Positions 9,620-64,000 of a stretch of DNA of 64,000 nt are shown here, in pieces. Source of the stretch: Prevotella sp. (lineage in GTDB: Bacteria > Bacteroidota > Bacteroidia > Bacteroidales > Bacteroidaceae); the NCBI GenBank assembly GCA_017475265.1, contig JAFVFY010000001.1, positions 28,825 to 92,824 on the forward strand. Reading direction: 5' to 3'. Under the pieces are notes generated by a model. The model worked only from the letters and a program-made list of their open reading frames with translations. It was not told the DNA's origin and searched no databases. Numbering within the stretch: the stretch's first letter is position 1; each line of letters opens with the position of its first letter. Made by a program: the position numbers and the translations under genes.

Positions 9620-12157
9620 TTATCGGGATATAAGCTCGTAAGTATAGCCTGCCCTTGTCTGTATGTTATAAAGATATGTATGGTTAAAGTTAGATTCCTT
9701 CTCAGCTTTAAGGCCCTTACCCTTCAAAGGTGTGGCGGTGCGAATACGACAGGGGCCTCCTATCTCAGAGCGTACAACGGCACGAGTGAGACGTCCGTCC
9801 TTCCAGTACATGTCGACCTCAAAGCCACCACGGGCCCTCAGGCCTCGCACTGAGCCGTCCTTCCATGCTAAGGGCAGGGCGGGAAGGAGGTAAATGAAAC
9901 CGTCGTGGCTCTGGAGCAGCATCTCGGCAATGCCAGCGGTGCAACCGAAGTTTCCATCAATCTGGAATGGCGGGTGAGCATCGAACATGTTGGGATAGGT
10001 GCCACCGCGCTGCTTCTGCGTGCCGAAGATGAGGAAAGTGTCGGCGGTGAGCGTCAGCTGGTCCTGAATGAGCTTGTAGGCATGTTCACCATCAAGCAGA
10101 CGTGCCCAGCAGCAGACCTTCCAACCCATCGACCAACCAGTGCTGACATCACCTCGGGCTTCGAGCGAGGTGCGGGCGGCACGCCACAACTCCGGCGTGC
10201 GGAAGGGTGAGATTTGGTTGGAGGGGAAGAGACCATAGAGGTGGGAAAAGTGGCGGTGGTCATCCTTCGGATCATCGAGGTCATCGAGCCATTCCTGCAA
10301 CTGTCCCCAACGGCCTATCTGCATCGGGGGCAAACGGGTGAGCTGGGTTTTGATTATTTCTATAGTCTCTATAGTGGCTATAGTATCTATAGCCTTTCTT
10401 GCCTCCAGTACATTGTGGAACAGCTCGGCGACGAGCTGATTGTCCATGGTCACTCCAGCATCAAGTGGAGAGGGGCGTCCCTTGCCACCATGCTCTGGAG
10501 ACTCACCAGGACAGACGACAAGATAGGGCTTGCCTGTTGTGGGCAAGCAGTGCTTGGGGTCTTCTACCAGAATCTGCGAATAGAAACGAGCGGCATCGAG
10601 CATGATGGGGTAATACTGTCGCAGGAAGTCACGATTGCCAGTATAGAGCCAGTGCTCCCACAGGTGGCGGCAGAGCCAGGCAGCGCCCATAGGCCAGAGA
10701 CCAGTAGCAGCACGGTCGATGGGACCAGTAACGCGCCACTGATCGGTGTTGTGGTGCAACACCCAACCGTCGGCACCATACATGTCACGGGCGGTCTGAC
10801 GACCTGTCTCACTCACCTCACGGATGAGGCGGAAGAGCGGGCCGTTCATCTCCGTAAGATTGCAGACCTCAGAAGGCCAGTAGTTCATCTCGAGGTTGAT
10901 GTTGGTGGTGTACTTGGAGTCCCACGAAGGCAACATTTTCTCGTTCCAGATGCCCTGCAGGTTAGCAGGGTTGATGTTATCAGGCTGGGAAGAGCAGATG
11001 AGCAGGTAGCGGCCAAACTGGAAGTAGGTCTCCACGAGGTGGTTGTCAGTAGTAGGCAACGCTTCCGAGCGTTGCATCTCCGTTCTTGCAAACTGAGCAA
11101 TACGCTGACTGGTTGGCACACGGGGATAGAGGTCGGAGCCGAGGTCGAGCTTCACGCGGTCGTAAAGCTGATGATAGAACTGCTCGTGTCGCACCTTCAG
11201 ACGTTCGTATCCCAGCGTCATGGCCTCCTGAAGTCGCTGCATGGCTTGTGCCTTCTCATCGCCAGTAATGTCCTTGTAGTTCACCACGTTGGTACCCACG
11301 GTGACATAGACGGTGGCCTCGTCGGCCCCAATGACCGACAGCTGGCCGTCGGCAGTACTGATATAATGGGCAACGTTTCCAAGCGTTGCGGCAGCCTCGG
11401 CATCGGCACGCTGGGAAGCGTGCCCTACTACGGCCTGCACCGCCATCAGTCCCATGAAACGTACCTTGCCCTTTAGGTTCTCGTGTTTCCCCGACACGCC
11501 ATGTAGATAGGCGTAGCCACTTCCCACCCCTGTAGGGGAGGGGTTGGGGGTGGGGTCACTGCCAGTCAGCACGTCGCTATGAGGCGAGGTGAACGAAGCC
11601 GTGAACGAAATGCGTCCTGGCTCCGAAGCGGTGAGGTGTATGGCGACCACCTTGCTGCCCAGCGGGGCAATGGTCTCACGCTCATACTTTACTCCGTCCA
11701 CTTCATAGCGAACGATGCTTAGGGCGTTGTCAATATCAAGCAACCGCTCATAGTTGCTATAGTCTGCATGGCCGGGCATGGCGATATACAAGTCGCCAAA
11801 AGGCTGGTAAGGCATTCCCATGTTCTGCCCCGCTCCAAAGGGCATCACCTTCTCGTTGGCCAACTGTTCCGCCTCCTTATAGCGACCCTCGAAGATGAGC
11901 TGACGCACCTTTGGCAGGTACTCCTTCGCTTCGGGATTCATCACCTGATTAGGTTGACCGGCCCAGATGGTCTCTTCGTTCAGCTGTATGCGCTCCACGG
12001 CAGGCGTACCATACACCATACCACCCATCGTACCATTACCGATGGGCAGAGCCTGTGTCCATGTCTGCGCTGGACGGTCGTACCATAGACGGTGTTCCTG
12101 CGCCATCGCAACGACACAAAGATTAATCAAAAGGCTTAGTATGATTAATTTCTTCAT
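9620..12157 (-). CDS. GH95 alpha-L-fucosidase (or alpha-L-galactosidase)
   Basis: An 845-residue exported enzyme (signal peptide to residue ~20, AMAQ) covering the full GH95 architecture: N-terminal beta domain ([19 protein letters not shown]), linker and an (alpha/alpha)6 barrel. The inverting catalytic machinery can be placed: [10 protein letters not shown] contains the Asn pair, CPGESPEHG the general acid Glu, and [10 protein letters not shown] the Asp of the family. Substrates are terminal alpha-1,2-fucosyl or related galactosyl residues on pectin, xyloglucan or host glycans. The protein is slightly long because three repeat-like insertions are read through: ~residue 200 ([12 protein letters not shown], family C), ~242-265 ([21 protein letters not shown], read in pieces, family A) and ~362 (half of family A). 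An isoleucine/threonine-rich run ([16 protein letters not shown]) comes from a CTATAG-rich repeat. It begins 3 bases after the esterase stop. Confidence 0.92.
11050..11076. repeat. Family A half element inside GH95
   Basis: AGTAGGCAACGCTTCCGAGC followed by GTTGCA forms the hairpin CAACGCT-TCCG-AGCGTTG and carries the AGTAGG end typical of family A. Only one half is present, translated as [10 protein letters not shown]. Confidence 0.65.
11363..11431. repeat. Family A palindromic element inside GH95
   Basis: The left hairpin is CAACGTT-TCCA-AGCGTTG, the right hairpin CACGCT-GGGA-AGCGTG, and the outer ends TAATGGGC and GCCCTACTA mirror each other. On the minus strand it is read as [18 protein letters not shown] then NVAHY. 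The same peptide pattern recurs in the 1460-residue protein. Confidence 0.8.
11519..11556. repeat. Family C element inside GH95
   Basis: CCCCT-GT-AGGGG palindrome beside a GGGGTTGGGGGTGGGG run, translated on the minus strand as [12 protein letters not shown]. It has the same layout as the elements at 15907 and 21001 but a different stem. Confidence 0.6.
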
Positions 12158-12160
12158 CGC

Positions 12161-13489
12161 CTATGGTTTAGCAATTTTAGTCTGCATAGTCTCAGGGCTT
12201 TCTATTGTGACCTTCGACTCGTCAATCATCTCACGGTCTAGGCCGAAGACATCAGCAAAGAACTCGTAGACGGCCTGGCGCTTGTTAGGGCCGAAGTCGT
12301 GACGCTCATCGGGAAGATGGACGTTGCGGACGTTTGCTTTGGCATCGTAGAAGCCGAAGATTCGCTGAATGAAAGGGTACTCCAGCTCAGGGTTGGTGTG
12401 CGTCCAGTCGCCGCCGTCGCTGACAAGAAGGAGAGGCTTGGGGGCGATGATGGCAGCCAGTTCGGCTTCGCAGGTACCACCACCAGCAAGTTGCACAGGC
12501 ATACCACTCTCGCAAGGACAGCCACCATCGAAGTGACTAGCAACATGGACTACAGGAGCAGAGGCGGTGATGCGATTATCAAGCAGGGCGAGGAGCACGG
12601 TATGAGTGCCGCCTCCACTGCCACCATTGGCGGCAACCCGGGTAGTATCGATGTCTGTTCTGTTCTTCAACATCCAGTCGAGGAGCTTCAGCCCACAGGC
12701 GGCCTGAAAGATATGGGCGCGGGCGGTATGGTGGTCGCCCACCTCGGCAGCCGACTGGCTGTAGCCGTAGAGGTCGAAGTCTACGCAGATGGCACCCATG
12801 CGGGCCAGGGTAGCGAGGCGCTGCTGCTCGTCATCGCGGTAACGGGAAGGCCAATGGCCATCGGGGCAGATGATTAAAGGTTTGAGATTTGAGGTTTGAG
12901 ATTTGAGGTTTGATTTATTTCGGGAAGGGGAATAGATGGTGCCGAAGACATGCTGGCCGGGCGTCAGCTCCAAGCAGATGTTCTGGGTGGTGTAGCCATC
13001 GTGCTTCCTTATCTTGGAAAGGATGGCAGGTTTATCCTTTACACAGGAATCAAGGAAAGCATCAATCTGCAGACGTTCGCGTACCTCTTTTATTAATATA
13101 GCACGGCGCTGCTCCCACTCATCCTTGTTGCTGTACTTCGAGGAGAGCCAGTCGAGCATCTGCCGGCCTTCATCATCGTGACGACGGGGGTATTCGTAGA
13201 GCTTAATCTTGTAAGTATTTTCGTTCTGCTTCCACCAGTTCCAGTCGTAGTATTTGCAGATGTTGTCGAGCGTCTGTTCCAAGGAATAGGGGCGAACACG
13301 GAAATCGGCGTAGGGCAGCATCACGCCGACAGTATCTACATTGCTGTCGAACTTCAGCTTCACGCCAAAGCGCTTACTGACATCCAGCATGATGTCGTGC
13401 ACAGGACGGGCATAGCGGGTCTCGAAGGACTGCGATTTTGCGCTTACGCAAAATAATAATGAATAAAGTATAAAGGCAATTTCTCTCAT
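12161..13489 (-). CDS. Exported alpha/beta hydrolase (esterase-like) with N-terminal STN-like domain
   Basis: A 442-residue exported protein (signal peptide to ~residue 20). Residues ~25-100 (ARPVHDIMLDVSKRFGVKL; YSLEQTLDNICKYYDWNW) resemble the STN/secretin N-terminal fold usually found on TonB-dependent transducers. Residues ~170-420 are an alpha/beta hydrolase of the acetyl-xylan-esterase/dienelactone-hydrolase type: nucleophile in NGGSGGG, acid in SDGGDWTH, histidine in DERHDFG. It probably deacylates a polysaccharide, though the substrate is unknown. It is the first gene of a tight leftward operon with GH95 (3-base gap) and the MG2-like gene. The linker SNLKSQTSNLKP near residue 200 comes from an in-frame TTTGAGG/TTTGAGA microsatellite. 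Confidence 0.75.
   Translation of the reverse strand: MREIAFILYSLLFCVSAKSQSFETRYARPVHDIMLDVSKRFGVKLKFDSNVDTVGVMLPYADFRVRPYSLEQTLDNICKYYDWNWWKQNENTYKIKLYEYPRRHDDEGRQMLDWLSSKYSNKDEWEQRRAILIKEVRERLQIDAFLDSCVKDKPAILSKIRKHDGYTTQNICLELTPGQHVFGTIYSPSRNKSNLKSQTSNLKPLIICPDGHWPSRYRDDEQQRLATLARMGAICVDFDLYGYSQSAAEVGDHHTARAHIFQAACGLKLLDWMLKNRTDIDTTRVAANGGSGGGTHTVLLALLDNRITASAPVVHVASHFDGGCPCESGMPVQLAGGGTCEAELAAIIAPKPLLLVSDGGDWTHTNPELEYPFIQRIFGFYDAKANVRNVHLPDERHDFGPNKRQAVYEFFADVFGLDREMIDESKVTIESPETMQTKIAKP
12879..12913. repeat. In-frame period-7 microsatellite inside the esterase gene
   Basis: Five alternating GGTTTGA and GATTTGA heptamers are read on the minus strand as SNLKSQTSNLK. The same heptamers occur as intergenic spacer at 63413-63440. 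Confidence 0.8.
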
Positions 13490-13491
13490 CG

Positions 13492-13572
13492 TTGTTATTT
13501 CGTTATCTCGTTATTTCGTTATAACGTTATTTCGTTATTACGCCATTTCGCCATTTCGTCATTTCATCATAG
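13492..13572. repeat. Period-8 spacer repeat (GTTATTTC)
   Basis: About ten degenerate GTTATTTC octamers occupy the gap upstream of the esterase operon. The same word fills the next gap at 14335-14455. Confidence 0.8.
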
Positions 13573-13585
13573 CTCTCTGCATTCC

Positions 13586-14326
13586 CTAAATAATATTTCT
13601 CACTCCATTGCATTGCGGATAGGCGGAGCAGCTCCAGAATTCCTTGCCGGCATTCACTCTTTTCTTAGCCACCCGCTTAATCATAGGCTTACCGCATAAG
13701 GGGCAGACAGGAGCATCATTTTGCTTGCTCACCTCTGTACGGTGGGCAAGACGCTCCGCTGTAAGTGCCTCAGTGAATCCACCCTCCTCACGAAATATTG
13801 ATAACTGGCTCTCAATCTGTTTGCCCAGCATCAGGATGAGGCGGTTGCAAAGCACCAACATACAGTTGGCCGCCATCATCGAATCGTCTGAAAGCAGCCA
13901 AACATCAAAAAGATGCTTCTGTCTCAGAATGTGTATGCTGCTTTGGTGAAGCACATCGTCTTGATAGTTAGGTTTCTCAAACCGCATATTGGCTACCTGC
14001 GCGTATTCTGCTGAGTGTATAGACCAAGGAATCTGTTCGTGTCGAAGCAGCCAGTTCGTGTAGTCATTGGCAAGTTCGGCCAGGGTGGCGCGGGCTACGT
14101 CGGTAAGTCTCATCTCTGTTTCCTTCGAGGTGGAGTGACGGGAGTTGCCCTCGGCGATATTGGCAGGAGCAGCCCGGGCGGCTATTGTCATCTGGTCAAA
14201 CTGGCGTCCATAGGGGTCGTTGGTGCGGTTGAGGAACCGACCGCAGAAATCTTGCGTCGCCAATTGTATCACGTTGGCCATCACCCAGGTGTCAAGCCAG
14301 AAATATCCGAAATGTGAGATTTGCAT
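13586..14326 (-). CDS. Four-helix-bundle protein with C-terminal topoisomerase-type zinc ribbon
   Basis: A 246-residue cytoplasmic protein. The N-terminal two thirds (MTIAARAAPANIAEGNSRHS; LTDVARATLAELANDYTNWL) match the S23/four-helix-bundle family, including the hallmark AEG motif of proteins related to 23S rRNA intervening-sequence products. The C-terminus (CPLCGKPMIKR...FWSCSAYPQC) is a four-cysteine zinc ribbon like those ending type IA topoisomerases. This combination is known as the four-helix-bundle suffix type. Its molecular function is not established; binding to nucleic acid is inferred from the ribbon. It lies between two period-8 repeat spacers. Confidence 0.75.
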   Translation of the reverse strand: MQISHFGYFWLDTWVMANVIQLATQDFCGRFLNRTNDPYGRQFDQMTIAARAAPANIAEGNSRHSTSKETEMRLTDVARATLAELANDYTNWLLRHEQIPWSIHSAEYAQVANMRFEKPNYQDDVLHQSSIHILRQKHLFDVWLLSDDSMMAANCMLVLCNRLILMLGKQIESQLSIFREEGGFTEALTAERLAHRTEVSKQNDAPVCPLCGKPMIKRVAKKRVNAGKEFWSCSAYPQCNGVRNII

Positions 14327-17400: not shown

Positions 17401-18768
17401 CTTGAGATTATGGGCAGGGGGGAAGTCCTTGCCCTCCTTCGTCCAGCCTTCAGGGACGGGATATTCGGGGAATAGTTCGGTGGGGGAAGACCAGGTGTAG
17501 CCGTCAGTCGATATCTGGAACATGGTCTTGCCGGGAGCTTCATGTTCATGACGTGGGTCGGTGAGATAGTGCAGCCAGAAACGGCCCTGCCAGTAGGCAA
17601 GCATGGGCTGGTGGTTATAGGTCCAGTAGTTGGCAACGCCTCCGAGCGTTGCATCCTCGGAGCTGGCACGCTGGGAAGCGTGCCCTACTACGGTGCCGCC
17701 GCGCATGGTCTGGATGGTATGCACACCGACCACAGGCTTCAAACCTCCATCGTGACGCTCGGAGCGGGCAATGGTCTTGCCGCTGTAGTGAACGACATCG
17801 CGGTTATATTTGATAAGACCCCCCACTAGTTCTTCAGGAGCCATGAATACCGTACCGTGCTTATGACCCACGGGAAAGGATACGGCCCCAGTCTGGTCCT
17901 GGAAGGTTTTGAAATCCTTGGTGCGATGGGCACCATAGATTTTATGCTGATAGGAATCGTAATAGATATACCACCACTCCCCTACCCTAGCCGTCGATGG
18001 ACCCTCAGTGAAGTTCTCCGTAAACGGTTCGGAGGCTTCGCTCCACGGACCGTAGGGCGACGAGGCGAAAGCCACCTTGATGTTGCGCATAGGGCGGGTG
18101 TTATCCTTAAGCACCATGACGTAATAGGCCACGCTTCCCAGCGTGGCAACTTTGGTATCGACACGCTGGGAAGCGTGCCCTACTACTTTCACCAGGGTGG
18201 CGTCGATGACCGAGAATCCTGGATTATAGAAGAGCTGCGCCTTCGAGAACTTCTGGAAGTCCTTCGTCGTCATGTAATAGAGGCGGTGATTGTTCTTATG
18301 GTCTTCCTGTCCGTCGGGAAAACGACCAGGGATGCAGGAGGCCCAAATGATGAGGAACTGCCGCTTCACATCGTCGTAGAACAGTTCCGGCGCCCAAGTG
18401 TTCACCGTCGTGGTGTCCATACCCGTAGGTATAAACCGCTGTTTACTCCAATGAATGAGATCTTTCGATGACGAGTAGCCGACCCCCCGGTCGCCCCTCC
18501 ACGATGAAGTCCACACAAGATGGAACGTGCCGTCGGGGCCGCGCACAATGGACGGGTCGCGCATCACCTTCTGCTGCCCCACTTCCGGACGGAGGAAAAC
18601 GCCCGTGATGCTGTCCCACCGAAGCCCGTCATGGCTGTAGATGAACCGCAGTCCCTCAGTAGCCGGCTCGTGGAAGGACGTGGAGACATAAATGTCTTTC
18701 GCCTCCATGGAAAGGCAGCTCCACGCAAGCAGCAGGAGCAGGAGGCAGCATTTCAGGTAGTAGTTCAT
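14386..18768 (-). CDS. 1460-residue multi-domain glycosidase: GH43-like propeller, sialidase-like propeller, six-hairpin domain
   Basis: An exported protein (signal peptide ~1-23). Residues ~25-340 look like a five-bladed GH43-type propeller (MRDPSIVRGPDGTFHLVWTS; TWAPELFYDD), with the Asp of MRDPS and a later Glu-rich blade. Residues ~350-760 contain BNR/sialidase-like repeats (LSTDGGNTWRL; ISLSADGLDYTTL). Residues ~760-930 form a jelly-roll-like domain (LQVEFDLRFDQADHGELDIE). From ~975 a six-hairpin (alpha/alpha)6 glycosidase domain of the MGH1/GH63-like type follows (FSSWNPYAVQELF; KCEWDGAIWPFATSQT; TYNDLIITGICGL). Four palindromic insertions are translated within it, at ~195, ~360, ~695 and ~945. 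It lies 28 bases after pafA and is probably co-transcribed. The pectin context is inferred; the substrate is unknown. Confidence 0.75.
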   Translation of the reverse strand: MNYYLKCCLLLLLLAWSCLSMEAKDIYVSTSFHEPATEGLRFIYSHDGLRWDSITGVFLRPEVGQQKVMRDPSIVRGPDGTFHLVWTSSWRGDRGVGYSSSKDLIHWSKQRFIPTGMDTTTVNTWAPELFYDDVKRQFLIIWASCIPGRFPDGQEDHKNNHRLYYMTTKDFQKFSKAQLFYNPGFSVIDATLVKVVGHASQRVDTKVATLGSVAYYVMVLKDNTRPMRNIKVAFASSPYGPWSEASEPFTENFTEGPSTARVGEWWYIYYDSYQHKIYGAHRTKDFKTFQDQTGAVSFPVGHKHGTVFMAPEELVGGLIKYNRDVVHYSGKTIARSERHDGGLKPVVGVHTIQTMRGGTVVGHASQRASSEDATLGGVANYWTYNHQPMLAYWQGRFWLHYLTDPRHEHEAPGKTMFQISTDGYTWSSPTELFPEYPVPEGWTKEGKDFPPAHNLKAVMHQRVGWYVSSRDSGILLATGNYGICLTMKDDPNDGNGIGRVVRRVFEDGTLGPIYFIYYNHGFSEKNTIYPYYKKSKDKALVKAVEQMLADPMQRMQWVEEADRNDPLIPLDKPYKAFCGYTLSDGRKVALWKHAVTSLSTDGGNTWRLTNVDGKLGCDRAPGFVNSNAKIWGQRLSDGTYATVYNPSEYRWPLAISLSADGLDYTTLSLINGEVTPLRHGGQYKSYGPQYVRGIEAPSGAEGGAPFWVTYSNNKEDIWVSLIPVPVRLDATTHASGSFTQYAKLADMTDWNIYSPLLAPVALDGQWLTLSDSDPYDYAKVERIIPNTKELQVEFDLRFDQADHGELDIEFVDDVGTVCSRIVADSTGAIRVKGGARYGTLLKKYEPGVTYHITAKLSCELHRAVYIVTVPGGSDAGKCTRQFDTPVESISRLVFRTGPLFKEPNTDTPADQLFDQPLADTIGRLARFSLANVCSQDGDKGNYAPLLGRGGGGEVLISHYVSRFNSMEDENIVTTIPNSQAAEWMRENIPLFDCPDEQMREMYYYRWWTLRKHIKRTPVGYGMTEFLVDRSYADKYNLIACAIGHHIMESRWLRDTTYLHQILRTWYFGNDGQPMTKMNKFSSWNPYAVQELFKVEGDTAFLLSLKPRLEEEYERWERTNRLPSGLYWQGDVQDGMEESISGGRKKQYARPTINSYMYGNAEALAFINTLTGETDKARLYEQKADTLRNLIETKLWNKKHQFYETLRGDTLAQVREAIGFIPWYFNLPANDSLLYMVSYRQDIIHDEAWLQIKDEQGFSAPYGLTTAERRHPEFRSHGVGKCEWDGAIWPFATSQTLTALANYMNNYPYPIIRDSVFFRQMQLYTESQHHRGRPYIGEYLDEKTGAWLMGDRERSRYYNHSTYNDLIITGICGLRPQIDGSIVINPLMPKDTWPYFCLDGISYRGHIITIIWDEDGQHYHQGVGLTLMVDGRPVANRKGLGVITLTRDNVITKSRDSVITY
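15907..15945. repeat. Family C element inside the 1460-residue gene
   Basis: CCCTCTCC-CAA-GGAGAGGG hairpin beside CACCCCCACC. On the minus strand it is read as YAPLLGRGGGGEV. The complementary reading (TPTPSPKERG) is a familiar spurious peptide in Bacteroidota databases. Confidence 0.65.
16657..16685. repeat. Family D palindrome inside the 1460-residue gene
   Basis: AGCCCCC on the left and GGGGGCT on the right enclose TTCGGCCCCCGA. It is read on the minus strand as EAPSGAEGGAP. Confidence 0.55.
17626..17691. repeat. Family A palindromic element inside the 1460-residue gene (copy 2)
   Basis: Hairpins CAACGC-CTCCGA-GCGTTG and CACGCT-GGGA-AGCGTG with ends GTAGT and CTACTAC. Minus-strand reading [20 protein letters not shown]. 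Confidence 0.8.
18121..18186. repeat. Family A palindromic element inside the 1460-residue gene (copy 1, best specimen)
   Basis: 66 bp with near-perfect dyad symmetry: GTAATAGGCCACGCTTCCCA on the left mirrors GGGAAGCGTGCCCTACTAC on the right. Each half also folds on itself (CACGCT-TCCC-AGCGTG). The gene reads [20 protein letters not shown]. Confidence 0.85.
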
Positions 18769-24305: not shown

Positions 24306-24985
24306 GGATTTACGACCATCTGCTTCAGTTTTCCCTGTTCCAGGGTCTCAGCCGTTCGGAGTTGCTCCAGATGGCTGGCAACACAAAGTTTGGTTTCCTG
24401 AAGTTGCCCGCAGGCAAGACAATCGTCAGCGACGGTGACCTGTGTACCCAGCTTTTTTTCCTCATCAGTGGTAGCCTGAAGCTCTCCACCAGCAGTGATG
24501 ACCATGGTTACTCTGTCACCGAACAGCTGTCGGCACCGTGGCTGCTCCAGCCAGAGTCACTCTTTGGCCTTTCGCCACGTTACAGCTGTACGGCCATCGT
24601 TGTTAGTGGGGATTCGCAATCCCCGGCCGAGGCACATTTCATCACACTTTCGAAAGACGAGGTGCTACGCCTCACCGACGATTTCCTCATTATCCGTCTG
24701 AACTACCTGAACCTCATGGCCACGCTCACGCAGCGTCGTACACGTCAGGCCTGGCACCGCAGCCCTACAGACCTGCGCCAGCGCATAGCACGCTTTCTCA
24801 CCGACCACTGCACCTATCCCGCTGGCCGCAAGACGATACACATTCTCATGGAGCGCCTCGCACAGGAGGTGAACGACAACCGCCTTCACGTGTCGCAAGC
24901 CTTGAAAGCCATGCAGGCTGACGGACTGCTAACACTCCACCGGGGACGCATAGAGGTACCATCGCTGGAGCGACTATTTATGTAA
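24302..24985 (+). CDS. Crp/Fnr family transcription regulator
   Basis: A 227-residue protein with an N-terminal cyclic-nucleotide-binding fold (FSLFQGLSRSELLQMAG; FLISGSLKLS) and a C-terminal winged helix (RLAQEVNDNRLHVSQALKAM), the usual layout of Crp/Fnr regulators. No cysteine cluster for an FNR iron-sulfur centre is visible, so an effector cannot be named. The start is GTG 24302 overlapping the apbE stop. Residues VSGDSQSPAEA near position 104 come from a family B palindrome. Confidence 0.85.
   Translation: MRIYDHLLQFSLFQGLSRSELLQMAGNTKFGFLKLPAGKTIVSDGDLCTQLFFLISGSLKLSTSSDDHGYSVTEQLSAPWLLQPESLFGLSPRYSCTAIVVSGDSQSPAEAHFITLSKDEVLRLTDDFLIIRLNYLNLMATLTQRRTRQAWHRSPTDLRQRIARFLTDHCTYPAGRKTIHILMERLAQEVNDNRLHVSQALKAMQADGLLTLHRGRIEVPSLERLFM
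24608..24624. repeat. Family B palindrome inside the Crp/Fnr gene
   Basis: GGGGATT-CGC-AATCCCC, one loop base different from the copy at 2867-2883, translated as GDSQSP. Confidence 0.7.
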
Positions 24986-27939: not shown

Positions 27940-28779
27940 TCAACCCTCAATTCTCAATTCTCCGCTCGGCCCAACGGGACGCTTGCCCAAGCAAGAACTC
28001 TCAATTCTCATAACGGGAAAGGTGAAGTAAGTATCGGGGAAGGGTTCATCCTTCAGCGTGAAGTGCCACCACTCCGAATCGAGAGCTTTGAAGCCGTGGC
28101 GAAGCATGGCTTGGCGCAAAATCATGCGATGGGCGAACTGCTCGGCGGTGATGGAGCGATTGGCAGGCGATTTACTGTTATCGCCCGTATACTCACCCGT
28201 CTCAGGATTGCCGCAGAAGTCGGGATGGCTCTCTGGGCCGAACCAGTCAAAGGTGCCGCCCATGTCAAGTTCCTTTTCGGTCTGCATGTCAAAGAGCGTC
28301 AGGTCGACGGTGCTGCCACGTGTGTGACCGCTCTTCTCGTAGATGTACTCCTGCTCAAAGAGCACACTCTTGTCGAGGTCGGGATAGAAGTATTGCTTCA
28401 TGAGCGTATCAGGGATATTCGCTGCCCAGCGCACGAAGTGGTCTACGCCTTTCTGCGGACGATAGGCATCGTAGATTTTCAGGCGATAACCCTGCTTGAT
28501 GACATCGTCGCTCACGGCACGGAGGCTGTCTGCCGCCTGTTTGGTAAGTAGTGCTGTCGGCTCTTCATAACCATCGATACGCGTGCCTACGAAGTTGTAA
28601 GTACCGTAGTAGCGTATCTCCAAAATAGCATCGGGAACAGCGTCGGTTAGGGTTACAAATTGACTGGCATCGTCAGTAGCGCTAACCGTCACATTCTTCC
28701 TACTTTCTGAGAAGCAGGAAACCATAGTCATGCCGCAAATAAAGATGGCGGCGAACATCCATGTATTTCGCAGTTTCAT
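27940..28779 (-). CDS. VanX-like D-alanyl-D-alanine dipeptidase, lipoprotein
   Basis: A ~279-residue zinc dipeptidase. SGHTRGSTVDLTL gives the His and Asp zinc ligands, and SEWWHF the Glu and His. IYDAYRPQ is the conserved substrate-side motif. A lipobox (TMVSCFS) suggests an envelope lipoprotein. Such enzymes hydrolyse D-Ala-D-Ala. In this setting, without vanH/vanA, recycling of cell-wall dipeptides is more likely than glycopeptide resistance (inference). The last ~20 residues (ESSCLGKRPVGPSGELRIEG) are encoded entirely by a family E element plus a CTCAATT repeat, so the C-terminus is repeat-derived. It starts 23 bases after xpt-preA. Confidence 0.87.
   Translation of the reverse strand: MKLRNTWMFAAIFICGMTMVSCFSESRKNVTVSATDDASQFVTLTDAVPDAILEIRYYGTYNFVGTRIDGYEEPTALLTKQAADSLRAVSDDVIKQGYRLKIYDAYRPQKGVDHFVRWAANIPDTLMKQYFYPDLDKSVLFEQEYIYEKSGHTRGSTVDLTLFDMQTEKELDMGGTFDWFGPESHPDFCGNPETGEYTGDNSKSPANRSITAEQFAHRMILRQAMLRHGFKALDSEWWHFTLKDEPFPDTYFTFPVMRIESSCLGKRPVGPSGELRIEG
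27962..27998. repeat. Family E element (copy 1), encoding the VanX-like C-terminus
   Basis: CCGCTCGGCCCAACGGGACG then the hairpin CTTGC-CCAA-GCAAG. The VanX gene reads it in antisense orientation as SSCLGKRPVGPSGEL. It is flanked on both sides by CTCAATT heptamers. Confidence 0.85.
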
Positions 28780-55653: not shown

Positions 55654-57291
55654 TCATCTCTCCATTCGGTTGCACAGGTCGTCGTACCATTGCAGGTAGC
55701 GATGGCGCAAAGTCTTTGCTTGCTGCATGGTGTCGCCCATGGATTCCAGCTCGTCGCGGTTGATGGGTTTGTCTACCTCAATAAAGATAGGACTCTTATG
55801 CAGGGTGTAGCTCTTCTTGGGCAGCACCTTGCCTGGGCCGTAGAGACAGGCGGGAAGGATGCCGATGCCTAACTGCTGGGCAATGTGGAAGGCTCCCTGA
55901 TGGAAACGGCCAATACGGCAGTCGGGAGAACGTGTACCCTCAGGAAATACGGCGATGCTATAGCCACGCTCCACAAGCGATTGCAGACGGGGCATGAGCA
56001 CGTCGATGCCATCCCTGACGGGATAGTACTCGGCTTGGCGAATCATGGAGCCGTAAAAAGGATTGTTCCACACCCAATCGTTGGTGAGGAATACCATGCG
56101 GGGCGAAAAGAGCATGAGGCACATTAGGTCGAGGTGCGACTGGTGGTTGCTGATGATGACGTGAGGTGTGGCGAAAGCGGTCTCGTCAGCCACTTTACTG
56201 GAGAACGGCGCTCCCGGTATGCCCAGGCGTATCATCACGAAGCGGGAAAGCCATTGCAAAAGACGGTGGATGTTGTAACGCTTCCTTTCCGACGTATGGC
56301 CAATCTTAACGTAGAACCAGACGGCGGGCGTGAACACAAAGACGGAAAAGAAAATGAAGAAGAGCAAGGAACCTATAGTGCGAAGATATTTCATCAACCA
56401 CCGCCACAGACGCAGAGGCAGCCCGTAGACCACGGCAAGGAAGCAGAGCACGGTGTTCAGAAGGCTGATACGGGCGAAATCTTTCACTGGGCGGAAATGG
56501 CTGACGCGCTCACTGGCGGGCGGGTAATAGACGTCTATATCGATGGGTACCAGCTCCACGCCATGCCAGGAGGCAAAGACGAGAAGTTCCAGCTCAGCCT
56601 CGTAGCGGGAAGTAAGGGGGGGAGAGGAGAGAATTTTCTTTAAGGGATAGAGGCGGTAGCCGGTTTGGGTGTCGGGAAGACGACGACCTGTCTGGACGTA
56701 GAACCAGAAGTTGGAGAACTTGTTGGCGAAGCGACTGCCAGAGTCCTGATTGCCGCAAAGCTTGGAAGCTTCGCCTACTACGGGTTGGTCGTAACGCTGG
56801 GAAGCGTTGCCTACTATGTGACGGCTGCCGATGATGAGGGCATGAGGATGCTGGCGGTTGGCCTCTAGGAACTTGGGGATGTCCTCAGGGAAGTGCTGGC
56901 CGTCGGCATCGAGGGTGATGGCATAGGAAAAGCCCAGTTCCAATGCTTTCTTGAAACCTGTGCAAAGAGCACGGCCCTTGCCTCGGTTGCGGTCGTGGGT
57001 GACGATAGAGAGTTCTTGCTTGGGCAAGCGTCCCGTTGGGCCGAGCGGAGAATTGAGAGTTCTTGCTTGGGCAAGCGTCCCGTTGGGCCGAGCGGAGAGT
57101 TGAGAGTTAAGAGTTGAGAGCTGAGAGGCGGTGTCGTCGGTGGAGCCGTCATCGACCACTATCACGTCGTCACACTCTGCGAGAGCACGCCGGACTACGT
57201 CTGCCACCGTCCCGCCATTGTTGTACGTCGGGATGATCACGCAAATGCCTCTGTCGCGTAGCAACTTCTTTTGTTTCGTCTTGTCACTCAT
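55654..57291 (-). CDS. Fusion of family 2 glycosyltransferase and lysophospholipid-type acyltransferase
   Basis: 545 residues. Residues ~15-250 are a GT-A glycosyltransferase (IPTYNNGGTVADVV; VVDDGSTDD; TLDADGQHFPED; TQTGYRLYPL). Residues ~300-520 are a PlsC-like acyltransferase with HX4D in ISNHQSHLD and FPEGTRS, plus membrane segments near ~280 and ~315. Bacteroidota aryl-polyene and flexirubin-type clusters contain such GT-acyltransferase fusions with LolA-like and ketosynthase genes, as here. Two insertions distort the GT half: ~65-95 is two tandem family E copies (ARPNGTLAQARTLNSPLGP and following), and ~158-179 is family A half elements (GNASQRYDQPVVGEASK). Its start overlaps the previous gene by 8 bases. 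It is the last gene of the operon. Confidence 0.87.
   Translation of the reverse strand: MSDKTKQKKLLRDRGICVIIPTYNNGGTVADVVRRALAECDDVIVVDDGSTDDTASQLSTLNSQLSARPNGTLAQARTLNSPLGPTGRLPKQELSIVTHDRNRGKGRALCTGFKKALELGFSYAITLDADGQHFPEDIPKFLEANRQHPHALIIGSRHIVGNASQRYDQPVVGEASKLCGNQDSGSRFANKFSNFWFYVQTGRRLPDTQTGYRLYPLKKILSSPPLTSRYEAELELLVFASWHGVELVPIDIDVYYPPASERVSHFRPVKDFARISLLNTVLCFLAVVYGLPLRLWRWLMKYLRTIGSLLFFIFFSVFVFTPAVWFYVKIGHTSERKRYNIHRLLQWLSRFVMIRLGIPGAPFSSKVADETAFATPHVIISNHQSHLDLMCLMLFSPRMVFLTNDWVWNNPFYGSMIRQAEYYPVRDGIDVLMPRLQSLVERGYSIAVFPEGTRSPDCRIGRFHQGAFHIAQQLGIGILPACLYGPGKVLPKKSYTLHKSPIFIEVDKPINRDELESMGDTMQQAKTLRHRYLQWYDDLCNRMER
56755..56818. repeat. Two family A half elements in the GT-acyltransferase gene
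   Basis: AAGCT-TGGA-AGCTT followed by CGCCTACTAC, then AACGCT-GGGA-AGCGTT followed by GCCTACTAT, both in the same orientation. The stems differ by compensatory changes. The gene reads GNASQRYDQPVVGEASK. Confidence 0.75.
57012..57050. repeat. Family E element (copy 2)
   Basis: Inverted orientation relative to copy 1, stem CTTGC/GCAAG. Read in frame by the GT gene as PLGPTGRLPKQEL. Confidence 0.85.
57059..57097. repeat. Family E element (copy 3)
   Basis: Tandem neighbour of copy 2, 8 bases away, read in a different frame as ARPNGTLAQARTL. A GAGAGTTGAGAG heptamer run follows. Confidence 0.85.
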
Positions 57292-57736
57292 GCAGAGGCG
57301 TGAACTTATAATTAATGTGGTAACGCTTGTCCTCGTAGATGGAGTCGCCCTGCTCCAGCCCTTTCAAGACTTCACGAAGGTCACGACGGAGCACACGTCG
57401 GATGTACCACCGGTCCATCATCTTCACCACCGAGTGGAGCTTCACCTTGTTCTTCTTACGGTCGTAGGTGAAGTCGAGAGCGGTGATGCCAAACTCGTTG
57501 AAGAGGCTCCCCTTTACACACTCCTCCTCACTGAGCAGCACCAGCATACCGCTGACGTAGCCACGGGGCATGGAGATATAGGCGGTATAGCGTTGAGAGT
57601 TCTTTCTGAAGAAAGCGTCCCGTTGGGCCGAGCGGAGAGTTCTTGCTTGGGCAAGCGTCCCGTTGGGCCGAGCGGAGTGTTGAGAGAAAGCCAGGAGGCT
57701 ACTCAACAGCAAAAGTACGAGGAGCAATCGTCTCAT
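57284..57736 (-). CDS. Small exported hypothetical protein in the KS/GT operon
   Basis: A 150-residue protein with a signal peptide (MRRLLLVLLLLSSLLAFSQ). The mature part (YTAYISMPRGYVSGMLVLLS; TYDRKKNKVKLHSVVKMMDR; DLREVLKGLEQGDSI) has no recognised family but looks like an envelope protein that travels with LolA-like and GT-acyltransferase genes. Residues ~20-45 (HSARPNGTLAQARTLRSAQR and following) are encoded by two family E copies inserted directly after the signal peptide. It overlaps the LolA-like gene by 38 bases and the GT gene by 8. Confidence 0.65.
   Translation of the reverse strand: MRRLLLVLLLLSSLLAFSQHSARPNGTLAQARTLRSAQRDAFFRKNSQRYTAYISMPRGYVSGMLVLLSEEECVKGSLFNEFGITALDFTYDRKKNKVKLHSVVKMMDRWYIRRVLRRDLREVLKGLEQGDSIYEDKRYHINYKFTPLHE
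57599..57637. repeat. Family E element (copy 4) with compensatory stem change
   Basis: The stem is CTTTC-TGAA-GAAAG instead of CTTGC/GCAAG, while the flank CGTCCCGTTGGGCCGAGCGG is unchanged. Both stem arms changed together. Confidence 0.85.
57639..57677. repeat. Family E element (copy 5)
   Basis: Directly abuts copy 4, with the usual CTTGC/GCAAG stem. Confidence 0.85.
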
Positions 57737-60798: not shown

Positions 60799-61233
60799 CT
60801 ATTTCAGGTCTGTGAGGTCATGTTTACGCACGGCGTTGAGCGCCTCGTTAATCTTTGTCGACGATACGCCCTTGGTGTAGGGGAAATAGACGATCTTGAT
60901 GCCCTCGGCGGCGAACTGCTTCTCGTATTCCTGCCATTTCTCCGTGGCGTACCAGTCGTCGCCTACGAAGAGGAAGGTGGCGCCGAGCTTCTTGCACGCC
61001 GTGAGCTTGTCCATGTCGTACTGCGGCACGGCAGCATCCACATATTTTATACTGCGCACTATCTCGATGCGGTCCTCGAAGGGTATCATGGCGTGCTTGC
61101 CCTTGTAGGCCACCAGCTCGTCTACCGTCACGCCGACGATGAGCTTGTCGCACATTCCCTTGGCGTTCTTCAGCAGGTTCAGGTGACCGATGTGGAAGAG
61201 GTCGTAGACCCCAGTGGTATATCCTATTGTCAT
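60799..61233 (-). CDS. Glycerol-3-phosphate cytidylyltransferase-like enzyme
   Basis: 144 residues of the nucleotidyltransferase superfamily: GVYDLFHIGHLNLLKNAK with the HxGH motif near residue 17, FVGDDWY near 90, and GVSSTKINEAL near 126 replacing the RTSGISTT-type signature. It condenses CTP with a phospho-alcohol, glycerol 3-phosphate in TagD-type enzymes, to give a CDP-activated group, a logical donor for the LicD-like enzyme of the same operon. Confidence 0.85.
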   Translation of the reverse strand: MTIGYTTGVYDLFHIGHLNLLKNAKGMCDKLIVGVTVDELVAYKGKHAMIPFEDRIEIVRSIKYVDAAVPQYDMDKLTACKKLGATFLFVGDDWYATEKWQEYEKQFAAEGIKIVYFPYTKGVSSTKINEALNAVRKHDLTDLK

Positions 61234-61254
61234 AGACTTTTAATTATATTATTG

Positions 61255-61475
61255 ACCTTAGTTCTTTTGACCTTAGACCTTAGACTTTAGACCTTAGACT
61301 TTAGACTTTAGACCTTAGACTTTAGACCTTAGACTTTAGACTTTAGACTTTAGACTTTAGACCTTAGACTTTAGACATTTGACTTTAGACTTTAGACCTT
61401 AGACTTTAGACCTTAGACTTTAGACATTTGACTTTAGACCTTAGACATTAGACATTTGACATTTGACATTAATTG
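61255..61475. repeat. Long period-7 microsatellite (ACTTTAG/ACCTTAG) between KS and cytidylyltransferase genes
   Basis: About 30 heptamers, mostly ACTTTAG, ACCTTAG and variants ACATTTG, the longest such array in the window. It extends across the KS stop codon at 61434 and encodes its last residues (LMSNVKCLMSKV). Confidence 0.92.
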
Positions 61476-62684
61476 AAGTACAAGTGCGGAGTTCGTGCCG
61501 CCGAAGCCGAAGGAGTTGGAGAGCACGGTGCGCACCTCTGTGTCAACGGTCACGGGTGTGAGGTTGAGCTTCTCCGAGTGCTCGTCGCGGTTCTCCAGGT
61601 TGATGTTCGGGGCCACGAAGCTGTGCTGCATCATCAGCACGGAGTAGACCACCTCGCTGGCACCGGCCATCCAGCACTCATGCCCGGTCATCGACTTTGT
61701 GGAGCTTATCAAGGCATGCTGACCGTGGAAAAGACGGTCGAGGGCGATGGCTTCGTACATGTCGCCCTGTCGTGTCGACGTGGCATGGGCGTTGATGTAG
61801 TCAATGTCGGCAACGGTCATGTCGGCGTCCTTCAAGGCACGGCCCATAGCGATGACGCTGCCCTCGTCGCTCGGCTCAGAGATGCCCGCACCGTTGCTGG
61901 AAAAGCCATAGCCCACTAGCTCGGCGAGGATGGTGGCACCACGCTGGACGGCATGGTCATACTCCTCAAGCACCAAGGCAGCAGCACCGCCACTGGGAAT
62001 CAACCCGTCGCGGTCACGGTCGAAGGGGCGGCTGGCCTTCATAGGCTCGTCCATACGTACAGAGAAGGCATTCAGCGCATCGAAGGAGGCCATAGAGTAA
62101 TAGTTCGTCTCCTGTGCTCCACCACAGAGCACCATGTCCTGCAATCCCTGACGGATGAGCATCATGCCCAGGCCAATGCTGTGGCTGCCGCTGGCACAGG
62201 CCGCACTAATGGTGAAGTTGGCACCCCGCAGATGGAAGATAGTACTCAGGTTCATGTTCACCGTTGAGTTCATCGACTGGAACACCAGGCCGTAGCCCAG
62301 CATCGCCGAGTCGTGCTTCTCGTCCATAATCTTCGCCGACTCGATGACGGGCTTTGCCGACGAGTCGTTGCCGAAGATGCAGCCCACCTCGTTCTGCTTC
62401 AGGTAGTTGTCATCTATTCCTGCTTGTGCAAAGGCCTGGCGCGTGGCCATGTAGGCATACTGCGCCTCCTCCGACATGCCCTGACGGGTGTGGCGGTCGA
62501 GCATCTGCTTCGTGATGACAGGTGTCTCCACCTTGCCCATCAAGCCCGATCGGTAGCCATACTCAAGGCGGTTCTGGTCGAGCACAATCCCCGACCGACC
62601 CTCATAGAGCGACTGCCGCACCGTCTCCACGTCTGTTCCCAGGCACGACCAGATGCCCATGCCTGTTATTACTACCCTTCTCAC
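61434..62684 (-). CDS. Beta-ketoacyl-ACP synthase (FabF-like, cluster type)
   Basis: 416 residues. The catalytic Cys lies in SAACASGSHSIGLG, the two His in INAHATSTRQGD and STKSMTGHECWMAG, and the C-terminus has NSFGFGGTNSALVL. It condenses acyl-ACP with malonyl-ACP. HAT in place of HGT and the surrounding operon suggest a dedicated envelope lipid or aryl-polyene-type pathway rather than housekeeping fatty-acid synthesis. Its ATG overlaps the fabG stop by 4 bases. The last ~12 residues are encoded by the heptamer array. Confidence 0.88.
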   Translation of the reverse strand: MRRVVITGMGIWSCLGTDVETVRQSLYEGRSGIVLDQNRLEYGYRSGLMGKVETPVITKQMLDRHTRQGMSEEAQYAYMATRQAFAQAGIDDNYLKQNEVGCIFGNDSSAKPVIESAKIMDEKHDSAMLGYGLVFQSMNSTVNMNLSTIFHLRGANFTISAACASGSHSIGLGMMLIRQGLQDMVLCGGAQETNYYSMASFDALNAFSVRMDEPMKASRPFDRDRDGLIPSGGAAALVLEEYDHAVQRGATILAELVGYGFSSNGAGISEPSDEGSVIAMGRALKDADMTVADIDYINAHATSTRQGDMYEAIALDRLFHGQHALISSTKSMTGHECWMAGASEVVYSVLMMQHSFVAPNINLENRDEHSEKLNLTPVTVDTEVRTVLSNSFGFGGTNSALVLQLMSNVKCLMSKV

Positions 62685-63480: not shown

Positions 63481-63844
63481 GTGCAAGAAAAAGCACGGCC
63501 TTTTTAACCCAAATCTGTCATTAGAGTTTATTTGAAACGAATCACCATAAGTTGCATTGCGGAAATGTAAAGAAAAAGTGCAGAAAAAAGTGTTCCTAAA
63601 AGTTGACCATCTAGCGCAAAAATCTGCCCAAACCAGCTGCTTTTTGCAGGAATCGCGCTTCATGACCCTGCACAAATCCCCCTCTTTTGTGCAGAAAACG
63701 ACCTAAAATTACATAAACTTAACACTTCTTTACTCCTATTTCGCTTAAAACTGGCGTTTTTCGCGGTTGGGAAATACCCCGAAAAAGGGTGTTCGAGGCG
63801 TCCGTTCCGGCCTTTTTGGAGCCAAACAGCCAGTCTAATAGTAG
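63481..63844. other. 364-bp stretch without recognised gene
   Basis: A-rich sequence with no convincing coding frame on either strand. It lies between the fabG promoter and the tandem array at the window end and may hold the regulatory region of a gene beyond the edge. Confidence 0.5.
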
Positions 63845-64000
63845 TAAGTGAGCGGGTTTGTAGTAGAAAACCGCTGGGTTTGTTCAACAAAAGCTATGGT
63901 TTTGTACTACAAAAGCTATGGTCTTGTACTACAAAAGATATGGTCTTGTACTACAAAAGATATGGTCTTGTACTACAAAAGATATGGTCTTGTACTACAA
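63845..64000. repeat. 22-bp tandem array with palindromic core, running off the window
   Basis: At least seven units of period 22 starting at 63845, 63867, 63889, 63911, 63933, 63955 and 63977. The last units are near-identical (AAAAGATATGGTCTTGTACTAC given as AAAAGATATGG + TCTTGTACTAC), the first two degenerate. Unit junctions contain the exact palindrome TTGTA-C-TACAA. Confidence 0.9.

Follow-up and report, generated by a model that had tools for sequence, protein, structure and literature searches.

A GTAG-tagged, REP-like DNA repeat dispersed within protein-coding genes of a Prevotella genome

The window, a stretch of 64,000 nt from a Prevotella sp. genome (contig JAFVFY010000001.1), carries copies of a short palindromic repeat, here termed Family A, within three genes. 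A preliminary description of the window had listed three full and at least three half copies and had placed them in genes for a GH95 enzyme, a large glycosidase and a GT-acyltransferase. The three full and three half copies are present, and the Pfam matches agree with these hosts. The features are as follows.

9620..12157, minus strand: host ORF of the GH95 family, 845 aa (Pfam PF22124, PF14498, PF21307)
11049..11075, minus strand: single unit in the opposite orientation, within GH95, reading RSEALPTT
11363..11431, minus strand: full inverted pair of 69 bp with a worn half at 11363-11389, within GH95, reading of 23 residues
14386..18768, minus strand: host ORF of a 1460-aa multidomain glycosidase with a BT_1020-like propeller and an MGH1-like GH domain (Pfam PF24067, PF22422)
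17626..17691, minus strand: full inverted pair of 66 bp within the 1460-aa glycosidase, reading of 22 residues
18121..18186, minus strand: full inverted pair of 66 bp within the 1460-aa glycosidase, reading of 22 residues
55654..57291, minus strand: host ORF with GT2 and acyltransferase domains, 545 aa (Pfam PF00535, PF01553)
56755..56781, minus strand: single unit with a changed stem, within the GT2-acyltransferase, reading VVGEASKLC
56791..56817, minus strand: single unit in tandem with the 56755 unit, within the GT2-acyltransferase, reading IVGNASQRY

The Family A unit is 27 nt, or nine codons, and consists of GTAGTAG and, next to it, a stem of 8 bp closed by a loop of 4 nt. Units are found alone, in tandem or as an inverted pair, and the consensus of the copies in frame 0 is GTAGTAGGCCACGCTTCCCAGCGTGGC. 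A unit is denoted '<' when GTAG is at its 5' end in the sense of the gene and '>' when it is the reverse complement; the 66-bp element of the preliminary description is '<', a spacer and '>', i.e., an inverted pair. The unit pattern has 9 matches in the window, where 100 dinucleotide shuffles average 0.00, and an Rfam search of the window at gathering scores gives 0 matches.

Folding of the full copies as single-stranded DNA yields z values of -9.07 (18121), -4.37 (17626) and -2.41 (the GH95 copy, folded as 11366-11431). The sequence at 18121..18186 forms one long hairpin with a free energy of -27.2 kcal/mol, its halves being almost perfect inverted copies, and the GTAG tags of both halves pair with one another. 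The sequences at 17626 and 11366 each form two hairpins. Next to the stem, the GTAGTAG tag is left unpaired when 17626, 11366, 11049 and 56755 are folded.

All copies had been described as in frame and as encoding the peptide GHASQR. The three full copies are indeed read in one frame, with the sequence VVGHASQR..ATLGxVAxY, and the units at 56755 and 56791 encode the variants VVGEASKLC and IVGNASQRY. The general statement is wrong because the unit at 11049 lies in the opposite orientation and is read in another frame, as RSEALPTT; it leaves the GH95 ORF undisturbed.

Several other repeats are present. A second, C-rich repeat is located in GH95 at 11508-11558, near a 14-residue stretch; similar DNA is found in several relatives, and the stretch is missing from the orthologue in genome G100. 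Another family, with the core AAGCGTCCCGTTGGGC, is at 57008-57106, 57595-57686 and 27952-28002, and in the GT-acyltransferase it is read within SARPNGTLAQARTL, beside 7-bp repeats. The palindrome GGGGATT.G.AATCCCC is at 2867-2883 and 24608-24624; it occurs 12 times in 56 loci of the same genome, 10 of these in called ORFs and 9 of the 10 in phase 0, and a palindrome resembling it fills the 17626 site in genome G105. Long direct-repeat arrays of 7, 8 and 22 bp are present at 61215-61506, 13472-13595 and 63836-63989. A hairpin repeat, TGTTCCCACGGTGGGAACA, lies within a cobalamin gene (L060:7170-7254) and has many matching places in G105.

The window holds a small part of the family. In the whole genome (G000, a rumen Prevotella-like bacterium; 4.75 Mb in 135 contigs) a strict pattern has 95 matches and a looser 23-nt pattern 153, with 0 for the reversed pattern. 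A census of units with no more than 4 mismatches was made in 56 loci totalling 633 kb, comprising the window and 55 other stretches, three of them around Y1 genes; these loci cover part of the 153 places, and the counts by frame are based on them. It shows 131 units in 74 clusters; the worn halves at 11363 and in L219 are missing from it because they exceed 4 mismatches. The reversed control, allowing 5 mismatches in 46 loci, has no matches. With a rough codon-usage gene caller, 115 of the 131 units and 63 of the 74 clusters are inside called ORFs, in 53 genes, and 16 units are intergenic. Since 81% of the loci is called coding, this share is close to random placement, and genes are not avoided. 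The layout '<>' accounts for 21 of the 74 clusters, and 11 more are longer arrays that hold both orientations.

The hosts include core enzymes (phosphoglycerate mutase, adenylosuccinate synthetase, isoleucyl-tRNA synthetase, anaerobic ribonucleotide reductase and ETF-alpha), several cobalamin-synthesis proteins and several glycosidases. Pfam matches are found in 35 of the 36 host proteins scanned, out of 53 host ORFs. The positions of the 63 genic clusters along the protein, by deciles, are 6, 5, 10, 10, 7, 5, 6, 5, 8 and 1. The half-unit pattern has 0 exact matches in viral contigs, and the 66-bp copy has no match in plasmids.

Comparison with orthologues reveals empty sites. In phosphoglycerate mutase (iPGM) the insert is missing in all 29 aligned genus orthologues, taken from 56 other genomes with a match. 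At site 18121 the element is absent in one of three aligned relatives (G032), and the other two (G100 and G105) carry a different palindrome-like sequence. Site 17626 is filled in the goat rumen MAG RGIG3601 (L188), is empty in G032 and holds another palindrome in G105. The insert at 11363 is absent in three of four aligned GH95 relatives, with a short possible remnant in G100; at 11049 two of three aligned relatives are empty and G100 holds a simple repeat. At four sites in the cobalamin cluster no aligned row has the insert and several rows carry other short repeats.

The insert is also an alignment gap relative to solved relatives of GH95, PurA, NrdD and IleRS. In NrdD it falls between chain residues 455 and 459 of structure 8p23, which we take to come from Prevotella/Segatella copri. 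The alignment of iPGM with a solved structure is uninformative because the Bacillus-type enzyme has a loop of similar length at the insert site. In ETF-alpha the unit replaces native residues, with approximately one residue gained relative to the solved structure. From their positions in these alignments, the inserts in host proteins would lie in surface loops.

At 10 of the 12 sites compared, the net gain in length falls short of the element. For single units of 27 nt it is +21 in iPGM, about +3 in ETF-alpha and +18 in both PurA and IleRS; for inverted pairs of 66 nt it is +57 in GH95 and +63 and +48 in the glycosidase. It is below element length at three of the four cobalamin-cluster sites, and the exceptions are NrdD (+75 for 57) and L060:6755. 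Clean insertion is therefore disfavored. No target duplication was seen at the compared sites, as judged by eye.

A mobilizing enzyme was sought at Y1_Tnp matches, 3 in the same genome and 20 in six others. No Family A unit is present near any of them, within flanks that extend some 1.4 kb or stop where the contig does (longer in the same genome) in incomplete drafts. Allowing up to 7 mismatches gives a single match there, in L110, which does not resemble the unit and was rejected. A 189-aa RAYT of G000, which resembles subclass 2.6 by the motifs listed in the portion of PMC6006769 available, has matches in 9 of 38 genomes and is near full length in five (G000, G034 with one internal stop, G007, G101 and G042). 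It is present in G007 and G042, both of which are without repeat matches in a scan with up to 1 mismatch, and was not found in G100 and G105 despite 19 and 22 matches to the repeat pattern. This poor co-occurrence, together with the lack of units near the Y1_Tnp matches examined, counts against it as the cognate enzyme. A 376-aa type is found in 24 of the 38 genomes and is too widespread to be diagnostic. RAYT relatives at L251, L245 and L249 (G028) and at L122 (G101) adjoin CGGATTTGTAATCCG-like hairpins and not this unit; such hairpins are possibly the cognate REP of that RAYT.

Family A is very probably a non-autonomous, dispersed repeat of the GTAG-tagged REP kind that has spread into coding DNA and survives where the reading frame is kept and the encoded peptide is tolerated. 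For such a REP/REPIN family, movement would most likely have proceeded via single-stranded DNA, with a Y1/HUH (RAYT-like) enzyme as the agent. Copies would persist when they preserve the frame, as the 27-nt unit does and as neighbors mostly a multiple of 3 apart would do, and the encoded stretch, mostly VV[GA]xASQRx, would be acceptable to the host protein between its conserved blocks. The inserts may be accommodated in three-dimensional loops and be nearly neutral for the host proteins.

A serious rival, though one to which we assign a distinctly smaller chance, is spread by recombination and no transposase, whereby copies would undergo gene conversion or template switching and locally replace the target. 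The reduced net gain at most of the compared sites points in this direction, as do the failure to find a cognate transposase among the Y1_Tnp matches and RAYT relatives examined and the presence of other palindromes or simple repeats at the same sites in some relatives. However, the targets are dispersed in unrelated genes, and no long common flanks were seen among the genic copies. The comparisons with solved structures are distant, moreover, and part of the apparent replacement may represent older divergence of loops.

A REP-kind repeat that persists where it is tolerated accords with the frames and orientations of the genic copies. In the '<' orientation one of the three frames meets TAG TAG and the two others are open. 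The '<' units number 68, 8 and 0 by phase, so that most are read VV[GA]xASQR, and the '>' units number 24, 6 and 9 in phases 0, 1 and 2. Of the 58 clusters with a '<' unit, 53 are in phase 0 and 5 in the other open frame. Genic clusters with only '<' units outnumber those with only '>' units by 29 to 5, or 27 to 5 when two with a worn partner are excluded; the p-values assume independent clusters, which is true only roughly. Among 52 pairs of neighboring units within genes, 41 are spaced by a multiple of 3; the corresponding figure for intergenic clusters is 3 of 5. The biases in frame, orientation and spacing are all explained if copies are filtered by host-protein tolerance, and strand-biased insertion could add to that in orientation.

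The repeat is also present in relatives. A scan with up to 1 mismatch matches 2 of 100 genomes, G000 and G034, and G034 is among the 59 listed congeners. When named genomes are scanned for exact matches, 29 stretches result: 26 labelled Prevotella (rumen, reticulum or red deer) and one each from a Bacteroidia, a Bacteroidaceae and a Thermoplasmata MAG. In the Thermoplasmata archaeon MAG a single unit (L101:4189-4212) is within an ORF and reads HTLGSVAYY, which may represent transfer or mis-binning. In the loci of relatives 34 of 49 distinct units are intergenic (22 of 23 in mag_1117 and 4 of 16 in RGIG3601), a rough tally since the gene calls were trained on the genome of the window.

Several of the intergenic copies are directly behind a TAnnTTTG promoter, which we take to be the Bacteroidetes-type motif, and behind some of these a common tail precedes unrelated genes such as those for phosphofructokinase and an M16 peptidase. 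A pattern combining promoter and REP matches 17 places in G028, 11 in G101 (mag_1117), 3 in G105 and a single one in each of G000, G100 and G032 (that of G032 shows no hairpin); none is present in the other 45 of 51 genomes, and the reversed control has 2 matches. Inverted REP pairs behind promoters, with TTTGCAGCGTCCAA then GTAGTAGG or GTAGGAGG, were seen at L081, L086, L091, L093, L047 and L252-L281, and several of them share a tail resembling TGTAAAACGGTGAAATAACCGTTAGTTATATAG, located downstream and ahead of unrelated genes. The promoter-REP layout is the same in G028 and G101, with different stems. We suggest, tentatively, that the home of the REP family may be the promoter-proximal 5' UTR in related rumen Prevotella, from which it moved to a coding niche, and that with other palindromic families it might supply peptide insertions to core enzymes throughout the genome, possibly even now. 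Such a shift would be eased by a unit of whole codons with a tolerable reading in one orientation, and the other palindromic families would land at the same permissive sites.

A comparison of the genic units shows that the stem varies by paired changes. Of 115 units, 111, 112 and 111 have standard pairs at stem positions 1, 2 and 3, where shuffling reaches at most 81, 79 and 80; the copies are related, so that these counts are not independent events. The covariation includes replacements of G-C by C-G and of C-G by T-A, and these swaps alter amino acids (G/A, H/N and the residue following R). Frame-0 units show 62 changes outside the variable stem columns, of which 10 are synonymous; the random expectation is 27%, and the deviation, toward fewer synonymous changes, has a nominal p of 0.047. 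The substitution pattern of frame-0 units thus gives no sign of peptide conservation. Because the stem changes are paired and the other changes are mostly non-synonymous, it is the DNA and not the peptide that is conserved.

These properties bear on a function selected by the host, in which the inserts would be kept for a role of the peptide or of an mRNA hairpin. The strong frame and orientation bias is in keeping with such a role, as is the repeat directly behind promoters in relatives, but the share of synonymous changes is below random, the targets are unrelated and the sites are not shared by most aligned relatives, and we consider this explanation improbable. An artefact of the draft assembly is suggested by its 135 contigs and is very improbable, given that the ORFs are open through the inserts, that the filled 17626 site is common to RGIG3601 and that the repeat occurs in different genes of further MAGs. 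That the peptide is a true conserved domain or a protein repeat, as its recurrence in several proteins might suggest, is scarcely credible, as the inserts are missing from orthologues and several solved relatives and the DNA is also found in intergenic and off-frame copies. The preliminary description had attributed the shared peptide to insertion of an element and not to homology, and the empty sites, the alignment gaps, the paired stem changes and the many unrelated host families agree with this. That GHASQR represents the translation of a dispersed DNA repeat, and not a protein domain, is supported by the sequence comparisons; the preliminary observation itself holds in the main and extends across the genome.

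The family constitutes a natural insertion experiment, with one short DNA element in approximately 63 clusters in 53 genes. As orthologues are empty at the sites examined, insertion tolerance, the manner of spread and the passage of a REP from intergenic to coding DNA become measurable. There is also a caution for annotation, in that peptides common to Prevotella proteins may derive from repeats.

REPINs consist of REPs in inverted pairs, and Family A shares this layout with REPIN/RAYT systems; the RAYT relatives in G028 and G101 adjoin other hairpins. RAYT subclass 2.6 is found mostly in Bacteroidetes, according to the part of PMC6006769 (Quentin et al. 2018) available. Rickettsia palindromic elements, as described in the accessible sections of PMC10969869 and PMC3733652, are about 150 bp in length, and RPE-4 and RPE-6 are CGTC-tagged. 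They resemble Family A in being inserted in frame into unrelated genes, and Family A is likewise absent from orthologues; they belong to a different phylum, and by these descriptions the likeness is one of kind only. PARCELs are palindromic coding repeats that are thought to be mobile (excerpts of PMC2996958), but their motif, 25 residues in tandem, is found in ORFs to which no function is assigned, whereas Family A inserts are in known enzymes.

The closest comparison is with the GTAG-tagged REPs, which the available text of PMC3733652 (Di Nocera et al. 2013) describes as dispersed, with an unpaired GTAG end, a stem of 5-13 bp, a loop of 2-20 nt and dimers in opposite orientation. Family A has the unpaired tag, the stem and loop size and the dispersed distribution with opposite dimers; it differs in that an associated transposase was not found among the Y1_Tnp matches covered. 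Most REPs are intergenic by that account, with no strict requirement, in contrast to 115 of 131 Family A units in called ORFs. Intragenic units are also recorded there, most of them in Opitutus terrae (GTAG) and Rickettsia conorii (CGTC, RPE-4, RPE-6), and in-frame insertion of a REP is therefore not new in kind. The word Bacteroidetes is used once in the text available, for CGTC repeats, and among open-licence PMC papers none beyond this one was found on the phenomenon in Prevotella, Bacteroides or Bacteroidetes. Three points stand out as unusual: the bacterial group in which the repeat occurs, its predominance in coding DNA, and the difference from mag_1117, where nearly all units examined were called intergenic.
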